From Polytrichum commune (lineage: Eukaryota > Streptophyta > Polytrichopsida > Polytrichales > Polytrichaceae): 64,000 bases of DNA. The stretch's first letter is position 1. Each line of letters begins with the position of its first letter. The DNA lies in assembly GCA_950295325.1 (NCBI GenBank), contig OX485808.1:43544527-43608526 (forward strand). Reading direction: 5' to 3'. Made by a program: the position numbers and the translations under genes. Under the pieces are notes generated by a model. The model had not been told where the DNA came from and did no database searches. It saw nothing but the letters and a program-made list of their open reading frames with translations. Positions 1 through 58,330 of this stretch are shown in pieces.

Positions 1-3000
1 TAATCCCCAACTACCTCACTAATTATTCAAGCCCTTAACTAATCTTCCTACCTAATTTCCCTAATTCTACTAACAACCCCTTTCTAATCACACAATTCTT
101 CTCTAATCCTAAAATCCTAAAATCCTAGAGAGGAGAGGGGGAGAGAGAATTTCCTAACTTCACTAAGACTAACTAATCCACACAAGTATATTTTTGCACT
201 CATCACAACATCAAGTGCTCAACTCTTAAACATGGAACTTGCAACCACGTGTATTCAAAACATGAACTTTAAGTACCACAAATTGGAATCATGAATTAAC
301 TTTAAAATCCTTCACGTCAACACTAATTCTACCAAGAGGTCAAGCCCTCTTCAAGGCTAACAAGCCTTGGCTCTCAAACTAAAAACTAAGCACACACATG
401 TGCTCCAATATGGCTTCCCACACCCACACTTATAACTCGTGGGGTGCCTTGGAGCACAAAGGAAAGAGAGGATGAGTGAGGGAAGAATGAGGGATTATAT
501 AGTAAGCTTGAGGGGGTGAGCACCCTCAAGGCTCACGATAAGCCCTTGAGATTTCCTCCTACTTAGTAGGCGCCAATCCTATCTTCTAAGCCTTCCTCCC
601 TCAAATGATCAACAAGGATCCTAATTCGAACATTTAACTAGCCTTGGCTTTCTACCTACCACACTTTACCAAACTTGGGATGCTTCAACCCAAACTTAGC
701 CTCCTTCGCTTTCCGCCGCCATAACTTTCTCCCCTTACTTTCCCAAATCGTCGCTCACCACTTAATTCAAACCACGATGCTTAACTCGTGATTTGATTGG
801 TGCTTTGAGAATTTGCTTATCCTCCACCTTGCATTCTTCCTTGGGCCTTCCCCATTAAGTGGCCATGATGAGGTGGTCCACTTGTGCGCTCCATGTGATC
901 CTCCATTCATCCCAATTCGAATGCACTTGCCTCTTGAGTCACTTTGGTTGTCTCCATCCATTTGTACTAGCCTACTCACTAACTACTCAATCCAAGTTCT
1001 CCTTACCTATCCTCATTCATTCAAATCCTTCCGAAGGTAAAAACACAATAACAACTCACATCCTAGCCTCTTACAACATGGTACTTCTAAGACTAACATT
1101 TCACTCTTTTTATATTTTTGTGAAGTAACATGCTACTTCAAAGTGCATCAACTAACGTTTCAAGGGTCTAAGACTAAATGTGGGCACCCTTTTGGGCTCA
1201 CACACTCATCCTAGACTTCTCTTTATTGTGGACACGGCCATTCTCAATTTTTTTATTTTAAAACATTGATAGATTCTTTGTTTTGGTATGGTAATTTTTT
1301 GATTTGTGGTAAATTTGTTGGTAAATTTAGTGGGAATTTTGATTAGTTCAATATTTATATAGTTATCTTTTTTTTAAAGCATGCATAACATGTGGTAGGC
1401 CTTCACCTATTGTATCTTAGGTACTTAACCACCTACAAGGCTATGCTAACGGTGGTGGTCAAGGTATTCTCAAACCTTCAACCTCATAGTCCCCACTTCT
1501 AGGCCTTATCCAATAACTTGTTGCACTACACATGTGTAAGTGTGTGCTTCAATTTTTTTCCATATGAGAAGGCCACTATTACCTTGAAATGTAAGGATAC
1601 ATCAAGTAAACAGACTCGCACTCATCCAACATTAAATTTTGTCCCCTATAGATTTTTGGCGGATTCATCTCAAATGACTTGGATTAGACTAACTTGGGGT
1701 CCTTAAACCTAAATATGGTGTTTGTAAAACTAACAATAGATAGCTATGAGCCGTTTACTATTTTAATGCTTCTATGTTGGATGGATGAAAGACACGCTTG
1801 TATGTAGTAATTCCCTCTCTCTCACCTTAGTAATTACCAAGGAAGGTGACTAACATCTACATCTAAAACTAGAAGATCTAAAACTAAACAAAGATAGAAC
1901 ATTCTTTCATGACATTCAATTATAAAAATGGAATCTAGTGAGCAAGCTTGAATGAGTAGCCAAACACATAACAATTTAGAAAGGGAAAATAGGTCATCAT
2001 AAGAAGATCTCCAAACTAAACAACAAGAGAACATTCCTCCATGGCCATTCAGTAATATACATGGAATCTATATCTAATGAGTAAACATAATACCTAGATC
2101 TATTGAGTAGCAAAAATTATAAGAAAGCCTTCACACATGACCTTTTGCATGTCAGAGAAGTGACACAATTCCCATACATGGAAGAAAAATCACTACACAC
2201 TATTCATCCTTGTTGGGTTCGACACAAAAGTTTTTGGTGTCATGGGGCCCTACCGTTTTCATGTCAAAGTGTTCGGCCTTCCTTTTAGTGAGGGCACCAT
2301 ATTTTTGCACAAAACTCTTACACACAAAGTATGGTTGTGTTCCAAACTTAGGCCTATTTTGATGTAATTTCATGTTAAAACTTGCATTGCATGTGGCAAT
2401 TTTGGCAAGTATGAATACACTAAATGTCATGATCGAGCTCTGGTAAACTCTCCACTGGCTTTAGAAACTCACATACCCTAGCCATATTGTTGGGGCGAAC
2501 CAACCCGTACACTTGTTCCTTGGAGGCAAGGGTTTAGACATCCAACAAGGAATGAGTGTATGGGTTGCTTTGCCCAAATCCCAACCAAACTTCATCACAA
2601 AAATGGCCACCACATTGCATTTTTACTCCAAACACCACAAATCCACCCTCCGCGGGTGATTAAAGCTTAAATAATTATAATGATGTTTTATTTTTATTTT
2701 TATTAAAAATGAACATATAAGCTTACATATAAAGCAACATGTTTGTGATATTTGGATATAATCATACCACATAGTGAATGATGTGCCCCTCTTCTCAACT
2801 TGATCCAATTTTTTAATTTTGGTGTTGAAGTCTTCTCTTGCGACACATGTCAACGCCATATTTGTGAAAGAGCTCTGCAAATCTTAAGATCCAGCCCACA
2901 TGCTATGTTAATATGCTTTAGCCTGCTTGAAATGCTACTTGTTTGAAATATGTTTCGTTTGGAGTGTTGCCAACACTACCAAAAATGGTTAAAGCATATT

Positions 3001-3185
3001 CAACATGAGATGGTCAATACATATTAAGCGCACAATTCAATCTCATCATAACACATGTCTTTGTGGTGTTGACTCATCGGTGCAAACCTTCCTGTATATC
3101 ACTCACACACAACCTTATAGAGTAGAGAGAGACCCATGTATAATACCCCCCCCCAAAAAAAATCTTAATACATAGAGTCCCCGAA
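1..3185. other. Gene-free; no recognisable element
   Basis: Only short frames. The part around 1620-1830 resembles 43530-43720 (GATTCATCTCAAATGA; GTTGGATGGATGAA), so it holds an old dispersed repeat. I see nothing else. Confidence 0.5.
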
Positions 3186-3189
3186 AGTC

Positions 3190-3880
3190 ATGAAGTTCCA
3201 CACATGTAGTCATCACATTCGCCGTGATGAAACAAGTAAGTTAAAAGAGCACGGATTTGAGTTTCTTGAAAAGGATGCTAATCATGCTCTCCTAGTTATA
3301 AGAACTAGGCCGACATCTGCCATGAATATGGGTTGGGAGAGAATCTTGTCTTGAAAATTTATAGTAGTTTCAAAACTTGGTAGTAAATTATGATTTTTTT
3401 AATTAAACATTGTGATATCAATTTCCAAACATCTGAAAAATCACCCGGATTTCACACCTATACTATACTCATGCAAAATTTCTTAATCAACGAAAATAAG
3501 TATGTCTACTCTTGCCATCATTTTCTAACGTGATGGAAAAACCTTGCATTTTCATACTTGTTGTTGTCACATCTAGCATGATGGAAAAAAGTAAGATCAA
3601 AGAGCACGGATTTGGGTCCTTGTAAAAGTCATCGATTGATTGTACTCAGGATTTCGTCTTCTAGTTATTGGAAATAGGTCAACCTATCTTGTGAATATGG
3701 GTTGGGAGAGAATCCAGCCTTTAAACTTTTACGGTAACTTCAAAACTTGGAAACAACTTGTGAAATTTTTGGTTAAACATTGTGATATCAATTTCCATAC
3801 GTGTGAAAGATCACTCCAACATCACCCATGTACTACACTTATACAAAATCATTTTAGTTGACATAAATGGGTCTATGTAC
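3190..3880. repeat. Two-unit diverged tandem repeat (~355-370 bp)
   Basis: Shared blocks in the same order: AGAGCACGGATTTG, AATATGGGTTGGGAGAGAATC, CAAAACTTGG and TTAAACATTGTGATATCAAT. No coding is seen. Confidence 0.75.
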
Positions 3881-4949
3881 TCTAGGTGCCCTTAAGAATA
3901 GTGATCACATAAGGCCTGAGTTACAATATACCTTATGGCAACACCAAGATGGTGTGTTGGTAGACTAACAACAACATGTGTCCCATATGATTTTTAGTGA
4001 CTATGTTATTAGTTTAATGTTGAATAAGATGTTCATACGAGCTCCCACATGAGGATAATGATTGAGACCGTGATTTGGATTTGTTGATTATCTCATACAA
4101 ATTGCATGTAAAATATCCTAGGCATACTGGTATAAATCATTTGTGACCCTTTCACCTTACTATTATAATTGATTATAAAGAAATTAAACCAAGCTACATT
4201 GTTTTGTCTAATAAGTGTGGGTTACCATTCCAAGTTACGTGTTGCTATAACATTTTACTAAGAGTACTTTTTTTACCCAATAGAATACTAAGCTAGTGTT
4301 TATGTCGATTAATGTCATATTGGATTAGGATTATAGCAACAATCTATAGTTTTTACTCATTCGTTCCTTCTTAATAAAGCTTAATTCACACTCTTATGCC
4401 TCATTGGTGCTTTCTGAATCGCTTGCGGTTATGTCCTACACATGTGGACTCCTATCACTCTAATTCCACTCATTATGTCAATGATAAAGCTTGAAAAACT
4501 GGCAAGTAGTCAATGGCTCATAGTCCAAACAATGTCCGGGGTAATGTTTTAAGAATCGTTGCAAAGTCTTCAATTGTCATAAATTATATTTGCAATAGTC
4601 TCAAAGTTAAATTCTCTTAATCAACTTATAATCATCATGCAAGTCTTCACAATTGTAATCACCACATTCGTCTTCAGTGGACCATGCAATTTGTCTCAAA
4701 AATTACCCACATTGGGTCATACAATAACAACATATCAACAAAGTAGGCTATAATCTTTGTTCATGTGTTTGAGCCTAATTCAAGTTAATCAAATCATGTC
4801 CATTGTGTTCTAAACTTACTTCAATGTGGCAAAGTCTTCCTTCTACCAAGGCATTGTCTCAAGTCTGAAACATTTTTTTAAATTTAATATTTTCTACTTG
4901 CCTTGTATCCCCTTTTTTCTAGCTGTTTTGGTACCCTCTTGAGTTCAAC

Positions 4950-6215
4950 ATGTATGAATAATTGAAAGCATGTATGTCATAATGAGAGCCTTGGGAGGGA
5001 TTGGATTTGGCCGCCTTCCCTTCCCCCTACAATCCAAATTGACCACATTATGTTGGGTGTGGATTACCCACCACCCCAACCGTTGTTTAAGTGCACCCTA
5101 GTGCCCATTTAATGAAGAGGAACACACACAAAAGAAGGAAAAAAAGAAAAAAAATTGTAAAATCTTTAAAATATTCAGTGTGGGATCAAAATTATCTTCT
5201 TGAAATTTCAGAGCTTCTTCTTGCTTCCTTTTTGTGTCCTCTTAGGTTCTTTCTAGAGCCTCATACAAATGATTGAATGTATGACCACACTAGCTTGGGT
5301 GTGGATTGCCCACCACCCAACCACCGTTTGAGTGCACCATAGTCAAACGTTTTTTTTTTTTTGGGTTTTTGGGTACCCTTTTAAGCTAAGCGTGTAGCCT
5401 TGTACAAATGATTGATAGTATGCATGCCAAAATGAGGGCCTTGGGAGGGGTTAAATTTGGCCACCTTCCCCCATGCCCTAAGTCATATTGTTAATAAGTG
5501 GCAAGCTTAATTGACCACATTAGGTTGGGTGTGGATTAGACGCCACCCTAGCTACTATTTGAGCGCACCTTAGTGCTTAGGTCCTCTCTCACACACACAT
5601 AGGATTAGATATTTTAAAAATAAATAAATCAATCAAAGTTTATTCTTGTATTGTTTTCTATTGTGTCTTTGGTTTTTTGGTACTTTCTTGAGTTTAGCAT
5701 GTAGCTTTGTATAGATGATTGAACTTATATATGCCATGTTGAGTTGGATTTGGATTTGCCCCCCCCCCCCCGGCCCCCAAAATGAAATTGTTAATAAATA
5801 AATAAAAAACACGTTTGATTGGCCACATTAGGGTGGATGTGGAATGACCACCATCCATCCATCATTTGAGCACACACTATTGCCCATAAAATAAATAAAT
5901 AAATGTATTAAAAACTCTGAAATCTCAAAAAAATCAATCTTGGATTGGATACACATTTCCTTAAAATAATTAAAATTTTCTTCTTCCATTGTTTTCTTTA
6001 GTTTTTTGGTCTTTTGGTGCCTTCTTGAGTTTAGCCCATAGCGTTGTATGATTCATTGAATGTATGCATGCCATATGAAGGCCTTGGAAGGGGTTGGACT
6101 TGGCCACCTTCCCCCGCCCCTAAATCATATTGTTAATCATAGGCAAGTTTGATTGATCACATTAGGTTGGGTGTGGATTACCCAACACCCCAACCACCAT
6201 TTGAGCATACGTTCA
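4950..6215. repeat. Five-unit diverged tandem repeat (~230-335 bp)
   Basis: The block TTGGGTGTGGATTA or a variant recurs near 5053, 5294, 5525, 5832 and 6167. It is preceded by GGCCTTGGGAGGGGTT-like and GACCACATTA blocks and followed by GCGCACCTTAGTGC-like blocks. Unit length varies. It abuts the pogo-like remnant. Confidence 0.75.
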
Positions 6216-6249
6216 TGCCCAAAAACCAAGACCAAATTTTTTTTTAAAC

Positions 6250-6872
6250 ACACACACACACAATTAGTCTCGGTTCCAAAACACTTTTGAAACATTGTTC
6301 CGGTTTTTTGCTAGCATGATGAATGCATTTTACAAAGTCTAGTGTGCTAACAAATCTTTGGTAAAGACATTGAACTTTGAATGAAGCAATTATTTCATGA
6401 TCCAAGGGTTGTACCACACTTGTAACATTAGGTGGTAAGAAAACAATAATAATATTGCTTAATTGCAACGCTAAAAAACCAAGATGGTTCATCCCTACCA
6501 ACATGCTCAAGGGAATGGATAGCATAATTGTCCATAATTAAAAGTAAATTCCGCTTTTGAGATTTGAAATATATATTGAGAATCATCACCCAACTTTCAA
6601 ATACAATTGATGTTATCCATGCCATTTGGTTAGCAAACCAACACACTTGAAATGTTGGCAACCACCTTCCAGAGCATCGTGGGCGTAGAGAGATTTGTAA
6701 ATGATCACATGTTTCAACTTGTTAGTGTTTGCCGTGTTAACAACAAAATAAATAATGAACGCTCCTCATGGATTTAGCGCTTACGAACTTTTCCCTGCAT
6801 TAGTGTCTTGTTTGGTTGGGCACGATAAAATAAACCATTCTCATCCATATTGTAGACATCTTCCAGTGCCAT
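6250..6872 (-). pseudogene. pogo/Tigger-like (Tc1-mariner) DDE transposase remnant
   Basis: Minus-strand fragments in two or three frames give the DDE core in the right order: NMDENGLFYR (first Asp), a VIIYKSLRPRC...AWITSIVFESW block, LLIMDNYAIHS (second Asp) and VFLPPNVTSVVQPLD (third Asp). These are hallmark motifs of the pogo/CENP-B-like family. A stop and at least two frameshifts break it, and the C-terminal end runs into a CA microsatellite (6249-6262). The N-terminal DNA-binding domain was not found. Confidence 0.8.
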
Positions 6873-7360
6873 AACCAATGTGGAGGAGGCGAGTGTTTAC
6901 CAAATTGTGTGCAACTTGTTTTGTGTGCATACGTGGTCATCAACATCGAAATGAAAGTACATGCCACTCAAGATTGTCGTCACCTCTAGAGCCAAGAAAT
7001 GGAAGAGTGGTATAGGTAAATCTAGGAGTATAAGTTGGCAAGGATTATAATTTCCAATCTAAAAAGACGTGAGATTTAGGTATGAGGACAATTTTTGCAT
7101 CAAAAAGAGAAATCAACAACTTCAAAATTATAGTTTGCATACCCAACAAACCCTTCAACCTCCACTTAAACCCAGATAGATAGATAGAAACTCCAGTCCC
7201 TTTAGGGGCCGGCGTGAATAGAGTGTCCGTTCGTAATGCCAACAATCCGATGCCCACAGGACATGGGGAAGCTGGGACAAAACTACTCTCCTCTTTCGAG
7301 GATGGACACTATAGTATCCAGTAACAAATAACAGGGGCCCGTCATGGCCCACGAGGGAGT

Positions 7361-7399
7361 ATATATATATATATATATATATTTATTTATTTATTTAAG
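7361..7399. repeat. TA repeat and TTTA repeat in the LINE 3' UTR
   Basis: (TA)n followed by (TTTA)n on the plus strand, between the LINE coding end and the shared 3' tail. Confidence 0.85.
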
Positions 7400-7487
7400 G
7401 GCGGGACGTTGGTACCAACACACTTGCACCAATCCCTAATCCTGAGATGGGAATAAGTGTTGAATACATTTAAGTTTAAGTTTTGAG

Positions 7488-9254
7488 TCATGGGGGATCT
7501 AGATTTTGGGGAAGTGGTTGGTGGTTTTCAATTCTTCTTTTATGGAGAAGGATTGACATTGCATATTGTATTGCAATGGTATTGATATTTTTAAAGGTAT
7601 TTTTGATGGTTGCCATGGGTATTTTGAGATTGTCTTCTAGTAGTTTCATAGGAGGGATGTGGGCAGTAGCTCTAGCCCCAGCAGTAATGACAAGAAGTGG
7701 TTCGATTTTCCATCCTCTGGAAGCAATACTATCAATTAGCGGTTTGTATTTGTTGATTTTAGCTTCTATGGCTTCCCGGGAGAACCGATCGTTACAGTAT
7801 GTAAATTCAATAAATTGTATGGAGAGGTCAGGGTTAATGTCAACTGGTGGGTCATTTTGATATGGTAGTCCTTTAACGCAAAGTATATCAGGTCGGAATT
7901 TTGCGTTACAGTGACATCTTTGTGTGTTACATATGCAGGGGAGTAGCCAATTAGGGACGGTATTTTCTTGGGGATTATTATTGAAGATACCAACGTTCAT
8001 GAGAGTAAAGCATCGGGATTTTTCGGACGAGATTAGGAGCTTTCTAATTTCTCCGACTGCTTTGTTATGTCTTTTAACTCTGAGTGAATGTATATGTTGT
8101 TGTTTACATTTAAGTAGTACATGGAGCCAAGTGTCTGGTTCGTTTGAGTGGCATATGGGGCACGTGATAGAGGGGTATCGTTGGGGACCGAAGAACATTT
8201 GTTTCCTAGCATTACCCATGTATGTTCATGTGTGGAATTTAATAAGGCATGATTTTTGTTTGTCAGTGATTGTGGGATTTGTCCAAAAGTCGTTTGATAA
8301 TTCTTTGTCTATGTCTGCGTTTTCTGTCCATTTACACGTGTTGGGGGTTTGGGTGGCCATGATTGCTATATTGTTTTCCCTATCATATTTCTTAATTTGT
8401 TTGTCTAAGAATCGTACTGGGCCTTTATCTGGAACGTCGATCATCGAGGCCCAGACATCTTTTTGATAATAATACGGAGTGGCATGGGCATGTTCATATG
8501 GATGGGTGGCAATTCTATGTTCTAATTGTAAGCCTGTTTTTGCAAGTTTGTCGGCTTTTTCATTACCGTCAATGTTGACATGTGCTCGGACTTTGTATAG
8601 TGTGATTGGTTGTGTACGGTTTTGAAGGAGTTTTACCATGGAGTTGAGTGTGGTTTGGTCTGGGTGACTATTGTGAAGAGTGGGATGTTTAATTTGTGTG
8701 CTGAGTAAATAGAGTACGTTTAGACTGTTTGTGAATATGAAGGCGGGTTCATTAGGAAATTGTGTATTGATGATTCTTAGTGTTTTATGTATGGCCATCA
8801 TTTCTGTGCGTAGTATGTTCTGATGGCCGTGTAATATTTTGGCGATATTTAAGCCTTTGGGGCTGTAGATACCGTATCCAGTTTTTTCTCTTCTCCATAC
8901 CCCTGGGGCAATTTCGGTGGGTTTTATAAAGGAACCATCTGTGTAGTAGCTGAATTGGGGGTGGAATTTTAGGGGGAAGTTAGTTTGGTAGTTTGGAAGT
9001 TGTGGTGTAAGGATATTATTGTGTGGGAACATGGTTGGATTAGTTAATTTAGCCCATTTTTTATTAGGGTTGACGGTGGTGTTCGGAGGGGTGGGTAGTG
9101 CAATTTGTGTGTGACTGTGTAGAATGTGCAGTGTGTTTGCTGTGTCGTTTATTAATTTCATTTGTTCGTAGGTACCAATATTGTTGTTTTGGTGATGAAT
9201 ACAGAAGATTTGCATGGTAGATGGTTCTTTGCATTTAATATTGAGTTCAGGGGG
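7488..9254 (-). pseudogene. LINE polyprotein C-terminal part: RNase H, CCHC, nuclease-like region
   Basis: A single frame from 9254 down to 7488, interrupted by one TGA at 8226-8228. The upper part (numbered from the Met at 9215) is an RNase H domain: YTDGS (D93), E138 in RTEMMAI, FTNS (N163, where the family has Asp) and GNEKADKLA (D222), with H212. Below the stop (numbered from the Met at 8219) are a zinc motif C20-X2-C23-X9-H33-X4-C38, a second Cys cluster (C95, C97, C102, C104), then RPD (109-111), IEFT (E138), KY (157-158) and RGWK. That order resembles the PD-(D/E)XK-like tail seen after the CCHC motif in several LINE groups. The reverse transcriptase itself is missing through truncation. 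The stop and the N163 change make this copy dead, yet it is little decayed and therefore fairly young. Confidence 0.85.
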
Positions 9255-9913
9255 TCACTTAAACCCAAAGACTCAAAAGTGCAACGTTTTGTTTTGAAAT
9301 CAAGGTTTAAAACAATCAACTTGAGTTAATTTAAACGAACCTGAATTATCCTATTGATAAATTCAACATGAACTCCCGATCCCAAAGTATATCATGTGGC
9401 GGGTCCCACCACCTGCACACATTAAAAACCTCTATTATATGACACGATGGGCCTTAAAATGTCATATTACAAGCATCATAGTAGTAATATCAGGGTAAAG
9501 GAACACTAGAAATTTTGGTCAACATGAAATGTATTGTCGGAGTTATATTGAATACTCCATTAATCGATAAGTTTTGGTGACTCTCTCATTTTGGCAATCC
9601 AGTTGGAGGTTTAAAAGCAACTCCTGGAAGGCAATTGGATGTTTCCAAGCATACACAAAAGCCATCCTAAAAGAGGTTTGACAACTTGTGATGGGTATAC
9701 GAGTTGGGAAACCATTCATCGACATGACATGGGGTGTTGTTTGGTTCAACACAAAATAAAATGTTTTTAGAAGAAAATTGCAATATGTTGTATCCACACT
9801 CGTCATTGTTTCACATGTTTAGTGCAACGGTATCACCATTAGAACTACATTGATCAATGTGGACATATGTAAAGTATGACTAACCCTTCACATCCTTGTA
9901 TTGTGGTCCAGTA

Positions 9914-10861
9914 TACCGTAGTTTAATAGCAGGTTCGGCACAAAATAATTCTAAAAACAGATGCCTAAAATTTTGGAATATTATTAGCATTTTTTGCCGA
10001 ATATAAAATTAATTATTTTTCAAAATTGCCCAAAAGTAAGAATTTTTTACTTCTCACTAGAGTTTTACTTACAATGGAAGCATATGTGAATTTTGAAGGA
10101 GAGAAGGTGCTCGTTTTGTAATCAAGCTCACTTACATTAGTCCACAAAGAATATGGGTTAAGAAGTAGCAAGACTCTAGGTGAGGCTTTTCAAATGTGTT
10201 GTACACAAATTTTTGGAGTCCAATTGAGCATAGAAGATGAAGTTTTATAGAATTTTGTCCAACTAACAAAAGTTGAGAAATCAATCCTTCTTCCACCTCC
10301 AACACGTTTTGTGTCAAAATAAGTCTTAATGCAAAAGATATGGATAAAACATTGCAGCCGTGTAAAGATCAAAAAATTAAAATGCGTTCATAACAGTTTT
10401 TCGGAGCTCATTTGTGCATAGAAGATCAACTTTTTTGGAATTTTTTTGGTCTAAGAAGAGTTTAGAAATCAAGTAATCTTTCACCTCCAACAAATTTTAT
10501 GTCATTTGAAGACTCTATGCAAAAGTTATGCGTGTTATAAAAATGAAGTCTAACTAGGTGCTTCACCTCAAAGTTTACATATCCCATATGCATTGTTGAA
10601 CACAACTCCACACTACTTGCATAAAGCACAGAGCATTTTCAACTCTTCACTCACATCTTACTTGTCATTCAATGCAAGAGAGATGTACAAGATATAAGCT
10701 TAAATAGGAAATTTAAAATGAATTTAAGCTGAATTTTTAAAAATTAAAAGAGAAAAATTGCCGAAAATATGAATATGCTATTTTAAGGTGCCGAACCTAC
10801 TTTTTGAACTTTAATTAAATATTAGGCAGCAAGTTGACGAACCTGCTAGTAAACTACGGTA
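9914..10861. mobile_element. Non-autonomous Tc1/mariner-type element (TA target)
   Basis: A 948-bp element with inverted ends TACCGTAGTTTAATAGCAGG and TACCGTAGTTTACTAGCAGG, extending to about 28 bp (TTCGGCA follows). TA lies on both sides. GTATAC makes the exact border ambiguous by a base or two. There is no transposase inside; a 188-bp tandem duplication fills the centre. The pogo-like remnant at 6.25-6.87 kb belongs to the same superfamily, but a link is not shown. Confidence 0.6.
10205..10560. repeat. 188-bp diverged tandem duplication
   Basis: GCATAGAAGAT recurs at 10228 and 10416, with the surrounding sequence (CACCTCCAACA, ATGCAAAAG) in the same order. It lies inside the TA-flanked element. 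Confidence 0.6.
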
Positions 10862-11416
10862 TACACCATCACACATAGAAATACGTGCATTGCTAGTTTT
10901 ACTTGACACTTTAACAATTCATTTTGTTCTCATTCTTTCACTTCTCGTCGTGGGTAAGTAGTCAATTAAAAGCAATTAAGAATGTGAATTCAAAGAGCGT
11001 GAAGCCACTTTTTGAAGTCCAAAAATCGAGGTAGAATGCATCAAAATTTAACATGGAGGTATATTCAACTAAACTTTGTATTGTCATTGCAACCAAATGG
11101 CTAAGCTTTGGGAAGCGTGCTTCGTGTCTTTAGAAATAGCATTGGACATGTGCCATCCTAATCCGTCAATAAATAAATAATGTACACACGTTGTCCCGGC
11201 TCATAGCACCCATGCATATGAATGATGAATTGTGAAGGATGTATATAATATGTGAATGCAAGATGGATGTAAAGTCTACATGGATTCCTACGTGGCATCG
11301 AATGGATCATGTTTCATGGTCACTTGGCCTATTTTTAAAAACCACTTCTTGGAGGTTGGCCTAATACAAAACCGGGAGACCGTGGCACTCCGAACACTCA
11401 CAACCGTTGATTTATT

Positions 11417-11568
11417 GGCTCTGTCTGTCGGACATAGGCTATGCATCAACTTCTTCGTTTCAAGCACAAATTTCCTAACCACTTTGCGTTCACACTTGGA
11501 CGTTACTTGTTCTTGTTATTTTTGGTCCACTTTATTTAATGTGGATGTTAACTATAATTATATATGTA

Positions 11569-11607
<39 letters not shown>

Positions 11608-11863
11608 AGAACTATAATTGCTCCCTAAAATGCATTGAAAGAATCTAGTTAAGTATAGTTATTTCGGTAGTTCTTGATTATTTATTCTAAAAATTTCGGG
11701 TGATATCAAAATCCTTGACCTGCATTTGAGAAGAAGGTGCACAAAATCCAAGAAAGGTTTGGTATAGTAAATAGCCATGGATTGGCATGAGCAAAGTGGA
11801 CAACTATAATTGTAGTCTTTCATAGTAAAGGACAGAGCCTCACGGTTCTACCGTTTTCTTGTT
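11417..11863. mobile_element. Unclassified ~440-bp insertion, copy A
   Basis: It starts GGCTCTGTCTGT and ends CGGTTCTACCGTTTTCTTGTT-like (hairpin ACGGT-TCT-ACCGT close to the end). It is absent from the homologous MITE at 17215-17709, where the flanks join directly (TTTATT|CTATTT). A second copy is at 56005. GGCTCTGTC recurs inverted near the right end (GACAGAGCC). The class is unclear; a 5-bp duplication (TTATT/TTGTT) is possible but not exact. It contains a TGTATG microsatellite. Confidence 0.7.
11564..11606. repeat. TGTATG microsatellite
   Basis: About six tandem hexamers inside the 447-bp insertion. The sister copy at 56005 has TA repeats at the same place. Confidence 0.85.
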
Positions 11864-12074
11864 CTATTTTACCATGTGTGAAGACCCACAAGAAAAATTC
11901 AGTAAAATAGCATTTGGTTGAGGCCCCGTCACATATTACTTCATGCTACACTTGAAGGTCGGTGACCACACTACATGATTTTGGAAGTGTTTTGGGACGG
12001 CCTTTGGACACTTTCTTTTGGGCTCTCACAATTTCATGGTCACAGCTCTTGGCTCATATCTGAAGAGGCCTTAA

Positions 12075-15000
12075 GTTCAATGATCCATGGACGTTTCCTA
12101 TATGGAGTGTCAACCCTAAGCTATTGACAAACCCAAAATGACCATGATTTGGAGGTGTGTTGCATAAAGGGACAAACTAAACTATATGAAAATAATAATA
12201 CTTGGCACTAACTATTTCAATTGTGAATCCAATGCCCCAATCTTCAGTGGAATTGAATTAAATCTCATTCCTACATTAATTTTGCATGTGCCAAAGCACC
12301 CAACCGTAGCCCGCAATTATGCTAAATACAATATTCATTGTCACTCGTTATTTAGAATTATGCAACACTATATCTATTTATTGTATATCTCATATTTTAC
12401 CAACAAAGGTGAAACTGGTAGATTGGACAATATAGAACACTAACAATTTTATTTGGTCAAAAAACACATCAACAGTAAAAACATATAGCATTGTGTAAAT
12501 CCAAATAATAAATGACATTAAATATGTTATTTTGTCTAGTTATCCAAAAATTGGTCCACCATTGGGAAGATGCCACATGCAACATGCCCAATTCTATAAG
12601 CAACCATGACAAGGGAAAGTTAACAGTGGAAGGGGACGGATAGGCATGTTGGATGTAAACTCGTTTCTTTTTTACTGTGAGGGGTGCCTGACTTGCCCTA
12701 TAGTAAACCGCTTTCCAAATGCACTATGCGTGACTTTCCCTTAAGCATGTTATTGTCTCGTATTCTCCAAACGACTTAAATTCTCCTAACAACAAAATTT
12801 GCATGAATGTTTGATTGTACATGGAGATCACATCTAGTGCTTTGGATCAAGTTTTAAATTTCCTTTGCCTAATGTCATTCATACATAGTCTTATGTGGCA
12901 GTTTCTGAGTGCCATGCATTGCAAAGACCTCTCAAAGATTGAGTTTTCACCATAACACTAAATTTAAAATTTGGTAGGCTCCCAACTTCAACACCCTTCA
13001 AAAACACAAAGTTCCACTCCAATTGGATTCCATCGTCTAACTCAAATCCAATGGTGAAACCAAACATGCATGTTGTGGGTGATAAAAACCTACCAAAGCA
13101 AAGTGATGTCCACAAAGTTGTAAAATATCATGATCAGTGAGGTTTGGACATCTTAAAACATGGTATTTAGGTATTAGCTACTTTATACGCGCCATTTGTA
13201 CGTTTGGATGTACCAAAGATTTATGGGATTTGAATCACAAAGGCCTCAAAGTTAGACATGTGAAATCATACGTTCTTTTGACCAAGTTTAGGTTGGTAAT
13301 TTAAGGGGTTGAATTGAGCTTCACCAGAAAGTGAGTTTCTTTGCACCTTAAAACTTGCAATCTCCAATTGTTGGCTCAAGCCACATGCTATCATTCAACC
13401 TTTGTATGGCATGACCAACAATACCACCACCTCGACCTCCATTGCATATAAATGTATGAATTGAAATTTAGGGTGACTTATAAAAGAAAAACTATTGATT
13501 TGAAAAAATGATAGGATGCTCAAATGTTGATATTCATTGTATGGTTTCAATCCTCTATTTTTCAACCCATATATATTCATATTTTGTAAAAACCTAATTC
13601 ATTATTCTTACTTTTTACCATATGATACCATGTAGTCACCAAAGTTGAGGTTGTAATTCACAAGCTCTTTTGTTTATCAACATCAGTATAATTGTTGGTA
13701 AATTTAATTTAATTTGATTTTAGAAGTTTTCTTATGATTCTTGGAGATTTGTTTTCAATGGCATCTTTATGTAGAGTTTGATTTACAGTTTATATATGGG
13801 TTATGGGCCCTTCAAGTTTTGCATATAAAAATTTGTTTCCATGTCATCAACATCGGTCATTTTGGTCTCAATTTCCTTTTAGAGTCAACAACACGCTTAT
13901 AATTGTCCAAAACCATGTCTTTAATTTAATTGGGGTGATTAAACTACCATTTAACGATAATCTCATATATTGTAGGTATGTATTATTCCAGCTTAAGAAG
14001 CTCTATCTCATCCACCAAACTTCATATATATATAACAATGTAAATATTGTCCCAATTTGAAAACGACAAACGCAATCTACAAAGCCTATCAAAGTCAGCC
14101 TTGATGTTAGCCCCAAAAATGCTACTTGGCCTTGAAGCAAGGAGACAAACAATCCCTTATTTGGCAGTGAGGTGGGGGGGGGGGCTACATGGAGTACTAG
14201 AAACCTATATGAGTGGTGAAAGATTGCGATGTCACAAGGTGGTGTCCCATAACTTTCTCCCACTCATGGGTTAAGTCATGGTGGAGTCACCCGGGCTCCC
14301 TAGCAACTTGCACCACTAAGGGGAACCTGCACTTACGTCTTGAATTCCCAAGAGAGGGCCCAATGCTAGTGAGTGGCAACAACAACTTGTGGGGTGTTTG
14401 AAGCATGTCATAGGACCACATGTTGGGATACCCAACTCGAAACCCCATGGGCAAGGGGTTTAGGATGCTCATAGCAGGGCGTATGCCATGCGCTGCACAC
14501 TAAAATTTATTGAGGGAGGTTGGATTAACTTGTGTGTGGCCCTTGGTTTTGCAGAGATATTGGCATTGCAAACTCATTGAGTCATCATTGGGTCCCACTT
14601 GGTGGTTGTCATTGTTACACAACAGGTTGCCTTTGAACCAAATGTGGGTTTGGGTTGAGAGAAATTATGTGAGTGCTCTTTTTTGTGTTGTTGAGACGTG
14701 CACATTATAATACAACTTAATTTGGGGGAAGATAAAAGAATATGATGAAAATCTTAACATTGCATGCTTTGAAAAATGACATGGTCCAATAATCACTCTA
14801 GAAGTGCATTCTTCACGAATAAGAAAAATGTGCATGCATTTAAAATGCGGCTCTAATAAGAGATGCAATGCACAATCGAGAAATATCATACTATATTAAA
14901 GTTCTTTGTGAAGTGGCAAAAGGGAGGGTCAAAATCATAAGTTTTGGAATTTTCTCACAATTCTAGTTTAACTTCCTCTCATACATGAAGTCATACGTAA

Positions 15001-16065
15001 AATGTAAAGGAAGATTGATCTTTTGGTCAACAAACATAGGATTCACGTCTTTGGGCCCAATCTTTGAATTTGAAGCAATGAACCACACCCATATAACACA
15101 TGGCCCTCCTCCATGTGGGATTTGGTGACATGGCTCTCCTCCATTAGGCTGATGATAGTTGATGTCAGTGATCTTGTTATTCAAGTTCTTAAAAGTGGGT
15201 CCATGAAGTACAAATTGCCTTTACTTTTTGAACAAATCAATTTCTCACCCCTAACATCCACTTAGAGGGTTTAGATTTCCTTAAAAACACATGATTGTTG
15301 TGCGGAGAACACTATTGTCCATGGTTAATGTAATAACACGCATAACTTAAGCACCCCCCCCCCCCAAAAGAAGAAGAAGAAGAAGAAGAAGAATCTTGTA
15401 AATATTTAAGAATGAACTAAGAATTGCTAATTGGAGCCCTATTGATCTTGGAGGGTTCAAGGGGCTAACAACATGGATGGAGTAGTTGTGGTTATGACAT
15501 ATTACACCATGTCTTCCTACATCAAAGAAACTCATTTATATGACTACCAAAACTCTTTTGACATTCCATGAATTATTGTTTAGTGGTGTATAAATTATTA
15601 TGACATTCGACCAAGCTTGCTCCATGAAACCCTAATCTATGTAGTGTCATTCAAACTCCACATAACTCCATAGGTCTCCACATGTTTCCACATATAAATA
15701 AGTGAGAATGATAATATTTTGGAGCCACATGTCAACACAATATGTCATTCCATTCAAGATATCATATATAAAAGCATATTTTGTACGGTTTTCATTGGCT
15801 CACACCCCCCTCCCACACATAAAAATGTTTCACCTACTTATATGCCCACTCAATTTGTTTTGTAAACTAGTCAAACCTCCCAAGGATACTCAATGTTTCC
15901 CTTATTCCATAAGCATTACCATCCAATTTGCTTCCAATCCATTGAATTTTCTTGTTGATTCCATCATCGTCACTTTTTGGAATACAAAGTGTGAATCACC
16001 AATATGCCATCAATACTCTCTTTAACTTTAATACGTAATTAAGAAAAAAACACAAATCAACATAT
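12075..16065. other. Gene-free AT-rich stretch
   Basis: Contains a lone end of the CACTAAATATGG-type MITE (12475-12530), a G11 run (14174-14184), the GAA microsatellite, and at 13960-14030 a short block (CTCATCCACCAAACTTCA) also present in CHD1 intron 2 (22290-22330). No coding is recognised. Confidence 0.5.
15354..15393. repeat. C12 run followed by GAA microsatellite
   Basis: A run of 12 C (15354-15365) followed, after AAAAG, by seven to eight GAA units. Confidence 0.9.
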
Positions 16066-16068
16066 CAT

Positions 16069-16494
16069 ACCTTGGACAACCAACCAACTAATTCAATTAT
16101 TAGTTAACTAGTTGCCTTTCATATCTATAGTTGTTCGCGATTTGACCTCCAAAAAATGTAGTTAATTATAGTTGTTTTAAATTCAATATGTCAAAAAAAC
16201 ATAGTTAACCAAAGTCGGGAGCAACTTGTTTATGGGATCTTGTTGCAGTGTTGTAGTGTCATTAGTGTGTTATTTGTGTTGATGGTGTACATGGAGGTTG
16301 ATATGGAGCCTAACTTTGTGAGTGATCGTATAAAGGCGTTTCTTCATGATCCTTAGTGGCCCGAGCATATCAAAGAGGCGAACTTCATCGAATATATAAT
16401 GATACTTGGAATTTTTCTAGTTAACTATAGTTGTTCTTGAATCTAGTCTTAATTTTTCTAGTTAACCATAATTATTTGAGTAGTTGTCCAAGGT
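16069..16494. mobile_element. Inverted-repeat element with ACCTTGGACAAC ends
   Basis: ACCTTGGACAAC at the left and its complement at the right bound 426 bp. GTTAACTAG blocks are repeated in inverted order further in. No target duplication was seen, so the borders are tentative. Confidence 0.5.
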
Positions 16495-16569
16495 CTACAC
16501 ATATGAAGGACCTTTTCAAGATAGCAGTATGATACCATACTACTTTTGTTATCATCAAATGTAATTAAA

Positions 16570-16593
16570 CACACACACACACACACACACACA
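16570..16593. repeat. AC dinucleotide microsatellite
   Basis: Perfect AC repeat of about 12 units between two inverted-repeat elements. Confidence 0.9.
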
Positions 16594-16620
16594 AAGGAAT
16601 ACAAATAGCTTGTCCCAACC

Positions 16621-17004
16621 AGCTACACTGAATATGATATTTAGTGTCATATGGTATTTTATGTCACTATAGTAGCTTTTTGGATGACACTTCTTATGAA
16701 TAAGTGAACAAATAATGTCATGGACAATGGACAAGTTCATCCATTAGCCAAAACCCTACTTTCTCTTATCAGCAACTCGTGATGAATTATTGTCATGGAT
16801 GATTGAAATTTGGATGAACAATCACTTGGTAAGTGATAGTAACTACAACACTATAATATATCTATAATCCCCCAAAAAATTATAAGGAATGGCAAATAAT
16901 GTTGGGTTAACATTTAGTAATGGTGACAATATACCATGGTATACAACTAGTATTGCGGAAGACAATTAGAATTGGTGCACTAAAATATCATATTTAGTGT
17001 AGCT
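16621..17004. mobile_element. MITE with AGCTACACTRAATATG ends
   Basis: A 384-bp element whose inverted ends start AGCTACACTGAATATGATA and AGCTACACTAAATATGATA (about 26 bp). No clear target duplication was found. The termini resemble those at 46222 and 56514. Confidence 0.6.
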
Positions 17005-17214
17005 TCCCCACCCCCATTTTCTCTCCCCTTTTTAGTCCACCTACCGGAAGGTAAGCAACGACTTCTCGTCCATAGTCAAGACACCCACCATTGACTAGTT
17101 GTTGGAAAATGGACCCTCTTCATGTCGGTTTGTCAAATGTGTTGATGTTCTATTGTGTTCCACCTTTTTCTCTTTTTTTTGTCTCGTCTTTGTCCCAACT
17201 CAACAAAACACTTA

Positions 17215-17709
17215 GGGCCACTTCACAAACGTGACTAAGAGCCCGTGACCATTACACTTCAAGCACCCTCATTCGTGGAAAAGGTGGAGCCGTCCAAGTT
17301 CACTTCACGCTATGCTTGAGGGACCAACATAGTATGTGAATGCAAGATGGATGTAAAGTCTACATGGATTCCTACATGGCATCAAATGAATCATGTTTCA
17401 TGGTCACTTGGATTATTTTCAAAAACTATCGCTTGGAGATAGGCCTAACACAAAACTGGGAGACCATGCCACTCCAATGCTCACAACCATCGATTTATTC
17501 TATTTTATCATATGTGAGGAGCCGCATGAATAGAAATTCATTAAAATAGCATTTGGTTGAGGGCCCGGTCACATATGGCTTCACACTACACTCGACGATC
17601 TGTGACCACACTACATGATTTTAGAGGTGTCTTGGGACGGCCTTTGGAGACTCTTTTGAGCTCTCACAACTTCATGGTCACGGCTCTTGGCTCGTGTGTG
17701 AAGTGGCCC
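17215..17709. mobile_element. Tourist-like (PIF/Harbinger) MITE
   Basis: A 495-bp element with ends GGGCCACTTCACA (left) and the same sequence inverted at the right, extending as imperfect inverted repeats for about 38 bp (including GAGCC...GTGACCAT). Both sides have TTA (17212-17214 and 17710-17712), the usual Harbinger target. It contains no gene. A second copy lies at 11249-12070. Confidence 0.8.
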
Positions 17710-18314
17710 TTAACCTCGTGGCTCCACAAATAGCCAGTGCTTGAAGTCACTTGCCATAATCGACATATACGACAACTAATCAAACCATGACCCAAAAGCT
17801 CAAGATACCAATGTAAATAAATGACGTGAACCAACATTCAAATGGTTGGAGAAGAAACTTGAAACTACACATTATAAATCGGAAATAAATACATTCCATT
17901 TAAGAATTTCACAGTTTTAGTGGATGGTATCCTCAAAACATGAAATAAACACAATCACATTAGAAGTTTTAGATGAATACAAAAACATGAACTTGAAGAT
18001 ATATATTATCATCCACAAATTGACTTCACCACAGCGATCTATGACAGTTCATTTGTATTGAAAATATGAATAAATGACCATTGATTTGAGGTGTTTTGGG
18101 ATTGCTTGACCTCGACTTAACTTCAATACCTCAATACCAATTGCATGTATATGTTGGGCAAAGGCCACGTTTCCACGTTCCCATCAATCTCAAGCCCGAC
18201 CTCAATACCTCAATTTCGAATGACAACATACAACATGGATTGAAGGTGAAGACATTCTCATACCAAGATGAATCCAAACTCAAAACCTCAACATGGTAGA
18301 TATGCATAATCTAG

Positions 18315-18678
18315 AGGCACCACGGGCCTTGGCTTGGTGGTTAGAGCTCATGGCCCCCAATGAGGAGGTTGTGGGTTCTATTCCCCATGCCGGCGTGGTG
18401 CTCACCACCCTTAGTCCACCCAACTATGGTGGGGGGTCCTTGGACCTTGTTGTATGGGTACCTCAAAGCCCTTTGGGGGGATACCATGTCCGGTATCTTC
18501 AAGGCACTAGTGGCTAGCTAGAAACTAGTATAGTGTGTCACTATAGTGTCCATCCTCGAAAGGGGAGAGTAGTATTGTCCCAACGTCCCCTTGTCCAGTG
18601 GGCATCGGGTCATTGGCATTACGAACGGACACTTTATTCATGCCGGCCCCTTAAAAGGGACCGGAGTTTCTATCTATC
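18315..18678 (+). mobile_element. Complete tRNA-derived SINE
   Basis: A 364-bp element with a perfect 12-bp target-site duplication, TGCATAATCTAG (18303-18314 and 18679-18690). Its head carries pol III promoter boxes: A-box-like TGGCTTGGTGG (18330-18340) and B-box-like GGTTCTATTCC (18374-18384, one mismatch to consensus). Its last 139 bp (18540-18678) match the 3' end of the LINE at 7175-7315 at roughly nine positions in ten by eye. It ends in the same TCTA-type tail. It lies just upstream of the CHD1 promoter, in the same orientation. Confidence 0.9.
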
Positions 18679-19049
18679 TGCATAATCTAGTTACTTATCT
18701 TAATCAAACACTTATAATTGAGTGATAGGTGGTCTGGTTTGGCGTCAAGAACGGATACCAAAAAGACATGTGTTTAGTAGATATTTGAAACTGCGCACAT
18801 AATACGACAACAACTCTACTTTCAATGCTAATCAACATATCTAGAGAGATCTACTTAACCATTTGATAAGAGCATAATTTGTTAACTTTGATAGTGAATA
18901 GGATATTGAAATGAGATTCAAAATTTATCGAGGAAAGTCGGTATGGCCTTGATTTGGATTTGCTAAACATCTCATGCTAATCGTGTGTTTTGTATCCTAG
19001 GAGAAGTGGACTGGTCGGAGAAAAAGTAACCATTTAAGACCCATCTACT

Positions 19050-20942: not shown

Positions 20943-21056
20943 GTAGACGGAGATATGTATCCTTGAAAGCAGCCCTGGAAGAGAGTCTGTGGAAAACTGG
21001 GTCGAATTCTTGGATCCCTGATGTCATAAAACCTGTAAATATTGGAGGGGTGCGGG
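20943..21056 (+). other. Last 5'-UTR exon segment with two minimal uORFs
   Basis: A good splice acceptor (CATTCCTTGCAG, ending at 20942) suggests a spliced leader whose last segment runs up to the start codon. It holds two very short upstream frames, ATG TAT CCT TGA (20955-20966) and ATG TCA TAA (21021-21029). Such minimal uORFs could reduce translation of the remodeller. The matching donor upstream (somewhere in 19900-20750) could not be fixed. Confidence 0.5.
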
Positions 21057-35472
<14,416 letters not shown>

Positions 35473-57924: not shown

Positions 57925-58330
57925 AGACTGCAACCAAGAAATTGAAGAGTGGCATGGGCAAATCTAGGAGTATAAGTTGGCAAGGATTATAAATTCCAAT
58001 CTAAAGAGATGTGAGTTTCAAGTGTGAGGACAAATTTTGAATCAAGAAGAGAAACCAACAACATCATAATTATAGTTTTCAGATCCAATGATCCCTAAAA
58101 CCCCAACCTCCACCCAAATCACAAAGATTGAGAAGTGCAACGTGTAGTTTGAAACCAAGGTTTGACCAATTAGCTTAACTTATCTTCAGTTAACCCATCA
58201 ATGAATCCATCATTATCTCCTTGATCCCAAGGCAAATTATAGTGTGATTCCCACCACTATTACATCACAATATTGTCATTAAATTAAGAAGCTTTTGTAG
58301 TTTACAAAATTGGAAAGTTCTCAATATTGG
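57925..58330. repeat. Uninterrupted copy of the LINE target repeat
   Basis: It aligns with both flanks of the LINE insertion at 7175-9255 and lacks the LINE. It is useful as an empty-site reference. Confidence 0.75.

Follow-up and report, generated by a model that had tools for sequence, protein, structure and literature searches.

The present analysis concerns two retroelements in a 64,000-nt stretch of the genome of the moss Polytrichum commune (contig OX485808.1; hereafter the window, whose coordinates are used throughout), namely a 5'-truncated copy of a long interspersed element (LINE; 7175-9255, minus strand) and a copy of a short interspersed element (SINE; 18315-18678, plus strand), which share their 3' tails. 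The LINE copy, of the class here termed LINE-A, is flanked by a 12-bp target-site duplication (CACTTAAACCCA), one copy of which lies at the 3' end of the element (7163-7174) and the other at its 5' end (9256-9267). Its boundaries are further supported by a paralogous empty site (58022-58182, plus strand), since the joined LINE flanks match this site across the junction with 76.7% identity over 163 columns. In the direction of the coding strand the copy comprises a part of open reading frame 2 (ORF2) with RNase H (8226-9254, minus strand; Pfam RNase_H, PF00075, at approximately 8529-8951, E-value 4.3e-11), a C-terminal part of ORF2 in which aligned copies reveal a CCHC motif followed by the motif RPD...EFT...K..KY (7491-8225, minus strand), and the 3' tail (7175-7315, minus strand), a folded RNA element with a (TCTA)n end that was delimited by alignment and folding; one in-frame stop separates the two coding parts. 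The SINE copy (SINE-1), recognized as one element by the union of head and tail in sampled copies, is flanked by the duplication TGCATAATCTAG (18303-18314 and 18679-18690). It consists of a head (18315-18539, plus strand), in which A-box-like (TGGCTTGGTGG) and B-box-like (GGTTCTATTCC) motifs were identified by eye, and a LINE-related 3' tail with a (TCTA)n end (18540-18678, plus strand), assigned by alignment, fold and consensus identities. The joined SINE flanks gave no comparable empty-site match within the window.

Local alignment of the SINE and LINE tails resulted in 90% identity over 140 columns (12 mismatches, one gap opening) and a score of 209, the best score among 200 letter shuffles of the SINE being 28. 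Similarity begins sharply at position 18540 of the SINE and 7315 of the LINE and extends through the (TCTA)n end. An earlier reading of this DNA from its letters alone (the original prediction) had stated that the last ~140 bp of the two elements match at about nine in ten positions, that similarity stops abruptly upstream, and that both elements have perfect 12-bp duplications and TCTA tails. All three statements were borne out, with the qualification that the first T of the SINE duplication may be part of the TCTA tail, which would leave 11 bp instead of 12.

The genome comprises 408 Mb in 64 contigs, of which C1 to C7 measure 42-78 Mb each. Contig C8 (146,561 bp) carries rbcL, with a 315-residue frame read as accD behind it, and its PsaB has its highest scores with the PDB chains 8htu, 6l35 and 7ksq, which are Physcomitrium patens entries, as suits a moss host. 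The genome was searched with a 21-nt tail motif allowing up to two mismatches, which located 1,418 places, as compared to one place for the reversed motif used as a control. The first 60 places listed, every one an exact match and all on one contig (C1), were sampled for their upstream sequence. This was the SINE head in 34 cases, the LINE 3' region in 13 (11 of class A and two of class C, the latter, L074 and L075, having identical flanks) and neither of these in 13. The 13 unmatched places are mutually unlike upstream, apart from one pair in which 33 nt belonging to the tail are shared, and their tail letters, compared by eye, are of the SINE type in ten, of the LINE-A type in two (L110, L130) and of the LINE-C type in one (L084). 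Perhaps some 44 of the 60 tails, which would be roughly a thousand genome-wide if the 60 places are typical, are SINE-derived. The search with the SINE head gave 1032 first-look candidates, of which 40 were scored, and 20 heads were read, taken from 43 head-search matches; 18 of these continue into a whole A-class tail, and two (L172, L173) carry the start of the tail only. In these samples the tail is not mainly an independent repeat; the opposite outcome had been named by the original prediction as evidence against itself. Pairs of copies with identical flanks, indicating segmental duplication (L074/L075, L036/L037, L056/L057), were left in all counts other than that of the SINE-1 duplications. 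A pattern devised for counting SINE-1 only (1,126 places, up to three mismatches) also matched LINE-A and LINE-C tails and was not used as a SINE count.

Relatives of the LINE were collected genome-wide using its RNase H part, by which 118 places (window copy included) of 2,826 first-look candidates were scored, and 20 LINE 3' ends were picked from these scored matches. Some LINE 3' regions are 99-100% identical over 247 nt, which points to young LINEs. Fourteen of the 20 ends carry the A-class tail of the window copy and six carry a related but distinct B-class tail, which shows 71-72% identity to that of the window LINE and terminates in repeats of the TTA or TCT type. The original prediction had regarded a different 3' end in other copies of the family as an argument against the pairing, and such ends do occur, but class B has a SINE of its own. 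A motif of the B tail was found at 131 places within three mismatches (reversed control, 0), and 100 listed places of the 131 could be assigned by reading to three sequence types. The B1 tails (20 fetched of the 40 best: 19 LINEs and one solo tail, L062) had suggested a class B without a SINE, which was overturned by the B2 and B3 copies, since reading of 20 such places identified nine LINEs (three B2, six B3), three SINEs (L149, L151, L154) and eight places without an upstream match. A junction pattern for the second SINE (SINE-2), with up to two mismatches, was located at 18 places and thereby provided 12 SINE-2 copies, namely the three SINEs just mentioned and nine more; the other places included two SINE-1 variants (L166, L167), a fragment (L168) and two previously sampled loci (L027, L131).

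The consensus heads of SINE-1 (25 copies) and SINE-2 (10 copies) are 97.8% identical over 223 columns, as against 68% over 132 columns for their consensus tails. The SINE-1 consensus tail is 90.4% identical to LINE-A and 91.2% to LINE-C, compared to 65.6, 68.0 and 67.2% to LINE-B1, -B2 and -B3, respectively, while the SINE-2a consensus tail is 97.6% identical to LINE-B3, 95.1% to B2, 90.2% to B1 and 69.1% to LINE-A. One SINE head thus bears either tail class, with SINE-1 matching LINE-A and LINE-C and SINE-2 matching LINE-B3. Since SINE-1 fits the A/C class and SINE-2 fits B3, the SINE and LINE tails match by subfamily, a co-variation that the original prediction had put forward for examination; the second SINE/LINE pair itself was absent from it.

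When folded singly, the tails of SINE-1, SINE-2, LINE-A, LINE-B1, LINE-B3 and LINE-C all form a closing stem, two arms and a 3' hairpin, the arms varying somewhat. The z-scores of the folds were -4.03 for SINE-1 (L002), -4.10 for LINE-A (L038), -3.97 for LINE-B1 (L046), -4.70 for SINE-2 (L154), -3.48 for LINE-B3 (L150) and -2.87 for LINE-C (L074). This fold is conserved in the aligned tails: RNAalifold placed 33 pairs in 18 tails, with double compensatory changes in nine of them, and in 24 tails 98.9% of 792 cells are paired, as opposed to 28.7-55.8% when the structure is slid along the alignment. Double changes occupy 82 cells in these 24 tails against a shuffled mean of 31.0, and since many cells reflect the single split between classes A and B, the number of independent events is smaller than the number of cells. 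The double compensatory changes suggest that the LINE protein may recognize the fold, with the sequence giving class specificity.

Target-site duplications of SINE-1 and SINE-2 were tested by requiring that a repeat of 8 bp or more be present at the junction, with permuted flanks as a control. Among the 46 distinct SINE-1 copies that could be tested, 40 have such a duplication, which is 11-13 bp long in 33 (permuted flanks: mean 1.15, maximum 4 of 46), and so do all 10 testable SINE-2 copies out of 12 known (permuted mean 1.0, maximum 4). Under a looser repeat test on the 60 tail places (at least 8 bp), for which the permuted control was high (4-13 of 60), repeats were obtained for 29 of 34 SINEs, 13 of 13 unmatched places and one of 13 LINEs. 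In nine of the unmatched places motif and repeat are no more than 36 nt apart, and at one (L076) none is visible at the break. Repeats measure 11, 13 and 10 bp in the three truncated LINE-type copies among them (L110, L130 and L084, respectively), and the duplications of SINE and LINE copies are similar in length. Terminal repeats of the LINEs and SINEs are (TCTA)n, (TTA)n or of the TCT type, and most sampled SINE-1 copies terminate in (TCTA)n, as LINE-A and LINE-C do, and not in poly(A). Five SINE-1-type copies (L080, L082, L097, L108, L119) have CTT or CTC terminal repeats in place of TCTA.

Uninterrupted frames of 2,625-2,924 codons, a further sign of young LINEs, were present at five of the 118 scored LINE places, and one of these elements, L031, was used for the classification of the LINE. 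Its ORF2 (684-8558, minus strand) matched the Pfam families RVT_1 (E-value 2.3e-29) and RNase H (PF00075, E-value 5e-13). Of its eight PDB matches up to an E-value of 0.01, the five best are entries named R2 (three) or reverse transcriptase-like protein (two), and the remaining three are RNase H1. By these matches the reverse transcriptase is of the non-LTR type and nearest to R2. An Exo_endo_phos match in L031 (E-value 8.8e-4, 19.5 bits) falls under the 24.5-bit cut-off and is accompanied by an xth match (E-value 0.0051), and L031 contains the strings TWNASSL, QETK, GDFN and SDHYP, which we take to be of the APE endonuclease type; in L033 there was no Exo_endo_phos-type (APE) Pfam match up to an E-value of 10. 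In ten aligned copies from elsewhere in the genome the CCHC motif and EFT of the C-terminal part are invariant, RPD is present in nine (RPN in L034) and the final Y in nine (H in L047), and we assume from these motifs that the region after RNase H is a restriction-like endonuclease. This C-terminal part had no Pfam match in the window copy or L031, a profile built from the ten domains found nothing in PDB up to an E-value of 10, and structure prediction from the window protein alone gave an unusable model (mean predicted local distance difference test score 33). Dualen/RandI elements encode both types of endonuclease according to the parts considered here of two publications (PMC4640811, PMC3636483), and the moss LINE looks Dualen/RandI-like in its domain content. 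The wording is restricted to "-like" because one endonuclease was assigned by motif and the other by a match below the cut-off. This probable class of the LINE was not part of the original prediction.

Several further features of the LINE were observed. Between reverse transcriptase and RNase H a PCIF1_WW match above the Pfam cut-off is located in both L031 (residues 1871-1964, E-value 5.3e-8) and L033 (residues 2168-2263, E-value 1.3e-10). The catalytic motif of PCIF1 is NPPF, and the LINE segment has AHPH at the presumed corresponding place and may be inactive. Upstream of the APE-like region lie GDIEPNPGP (residue 276 of L031 ORF2) and GDIKPNPGP (L033), presumably a 2A-like ribosome-skipping motif. 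The beginning of ORF2 is overlapped by another open frame, 488 codons or longer (L031:8534-10000 and L032:8500-9999, both minus strand), which may be ORF1 and in L031 had no Pfam match. The 3' untranslated region of LINE-A in L083, L128 and L129 holds an antisense sequence (GGGTTCGATTCCAG or close to it) that reads like a different tRNA-derived element. Elsewhere in the window (21039-35472, plus strand), open frames resemble, by motifs in the listed frames, exons of a CHD-type chromatin remodelling helicase gene.

We consider it likely, with a probability of roughly 0.85, that this Dualen/RandI-like LINE family is parasitized by the non-autonomous SINE, which is copied by way of the shared tail. 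The original prediction had called the two elements a likely parasite-host pair, which the shared tails, the genome-wide census and the class matching support, copying by the LINE protein being the part that we infer. In the proposed mechanism the SINE joins a head with RNA polymerase III-type box motifs, through which it would be transcribed, to a 3' tail of the LINE type. The ORF2 protein of the LINE would bind the tail fold (closing stem, two arms and 3' hairpin), target-primed reverse transcription would start at the short terminal repeats, and the protein would thereby copy the SINE RNA in trans besides its own. The two LINE tail classes would present the same fold with different sequence, and the same SINE head could use either. 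Because ORF2 may strictly recognize its own tail, as in zebrafish L2, the SINE would have needed a second tail for the class B LINEs, and may have gained it where head and tail meet, through recombination or a template switch. One may go further and suppose that the SINE tracks its host: a LINE branch changed its tail by about 30% of the sequence, possibly as an escape from the SINE, keeping the fold and acquiring new terminal repeats, and the SINE captured the new tail on its old head, which would amount to a host switch within one genome. This extension is a possibility that we put forward tentatively and hold to be somewhat doubtful.

A number of results weigh against the parasite-host interpretation. 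The description of the SINE as tRNA-like in the original prediction has some basis in that the head has A- and B-box-like motifs, read by eye. It found no support elsewhere: ARAGORN reported no tRNA in the window, Rfam gave no tRNA match for the SINE head up to an E-value of 10, and the minimum-energy fold of the head is a long hairpin and no cloverleaf; at the gathering threshold Rfam had no match in the window or in L031. The 60 tail places of the census are exact matches from one contig, and the 20 heads were among the best-scoring. The window's own tails fold less well (z-scores of -2.87 for the SINE and -2.39 for the LINE), the window SINE disrupts one pair of the fold, and of two further covariation counts, that of pairs with double changes was equalled in 73 of 500 shuffles and that of further pair types in 500 of 500. 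Outside the window a LINE-A duplication of at least 8 bp was found in one of 13 copies, most of them being untestable as their 5' ends lie beyond the stretches retrieved. Finally, the SINE-1 tail differs from LINE-A in 10-13 of 102 columns and from the rare LINE-C in 6-8 of 102, and as it differs from every LINE tail compared, no LINE can be named with certainty as its present partner.

This last observation leads to the explanation that the SINE is now copied by another LINE, for instance one with relaxed tail recognition, and that the shared tail is a relic. LINE-C, to which the SINE-1 tail is closest, is rare and not necessarily active, and the SINE-1 variants with CTT or CTC ends would also fit a relic. 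Most sampled SINE-1 copies nevertheless share the (TCTA)n end of LINE-A and LINE-C, SINE-2 follows the second tail class, and some LINE-A copies are very alike, so we regard a relic as improbable. Even less credit can be given to the view that the tail is a separate repeat which LINE and SINE picked up by chance and which has no role in copying. Near-tail-only copies do exist, as seen in the 13 of 60 places without SINE or LINE upstream and in the solo B1 tail, but those 13 differ upstream and for the most part begin at different positions within the tail, in the manner of 5' truncations, and chance acquisition accounts poorly for tails that match by class and for a fold kept by double changes.

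The direction of transfer may also have been another one, in that the SINE was the source of the tail of a LINE lineage, or tails are swapped between LINE lineages, rather than the SINE simply taking a LINE tail. This is suggested by the disagreement between ORF and tail distances among seven copies: LINE-A and LINE-B are 82.1-87.4% identical in the ORF and 66.7-74.4% in the tail, compared to 68.1-69.6% and 85.6-87.2%, respectively, for LINE-A and LINE-C, and to 85.6-92.2% and 93.5-96.7% within class A. LINE-C was represented here by one ORF-bearing copy (L135), tied to its tail via pieces of the 3' untranslated region common to L134. With three groups the branching of the ORF and tail trees cannot conflict, and the disagreement is one of branch lengths only; in the ORF tree a branch sets class B apart from the rest (weak support, 56/99), and none does so for class A. 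Either tails moved between LINE lineages or a constrained tail shifted once on the B stem, and the trees fit both. As a single shift on the B stem together with constraint within each class fits as well, we consider tail exchange unlikely, if slightly less so than a relic, and retain the parasite-host pair, in which the SINE would have taken its tails from the LINEs, as the preferred reading.

Known SINE/LINE pairs provide several points of comparison. For flowering plants, the parts of a 2013 review considered here (PMC3747384) name only TS of tobacco (with an RTE partner) and ZmSINE2 and ZmSINE3 of maize (with L1 partners), which resemble the moss elements as land-plant pairs with a common 3' tail and differ from them in having RTE or L1 partners and (TTG)n, (T)n or (A)n ends. 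According to the same source most flowering-plant L1 elements end in poly(A) and RTE elements in (TTG)n or (TTGATG)n, and the moss elements have neither type of end. The V-SINEs, which pair with a different LINE in each of sharks, zebrafish and lungfish (PMC3747384), are likewise one SINE group using several LINE tails. Theirs are distributed across species, while P. commune combines both of its tails with a single head within one genome. In zebrafish, the ORF2 proteins of ZfL2-1 and ZfL2-2 each strictly recognize their own 3' stem-loop, as described in the part of the study considered here (PMC4176376). They offer a model of how different proteins could read two tail classes, with the difference that they belong to the L2 clade and that recognition was tested there, whereas the moss LINE is known from its sequence. 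The combination of one head and two class-matched tails in one genome would make SINE host switching testable by tail swaps.

Closest by description are the green algal elements SINEX-1, -2, -4, -5 and -6 of Chlamydomonas, which share the 3' tail of a RandI/Dualen LINE according to the sections of the 2013 review considered here and which also have short ends other than poly(A), theirs being (ATT)n or (CTTT)n (PMC3747384); this likeness is one of description. A land-plant Dualen/RandI-SINE pair was not found in openly licensed papers, a search that left Repbase and most subscription journals outside its range. If the P. commune LINE is a Dualen/RandI element, tail sharing of the Chlamydomonas type reaches into the land plants.

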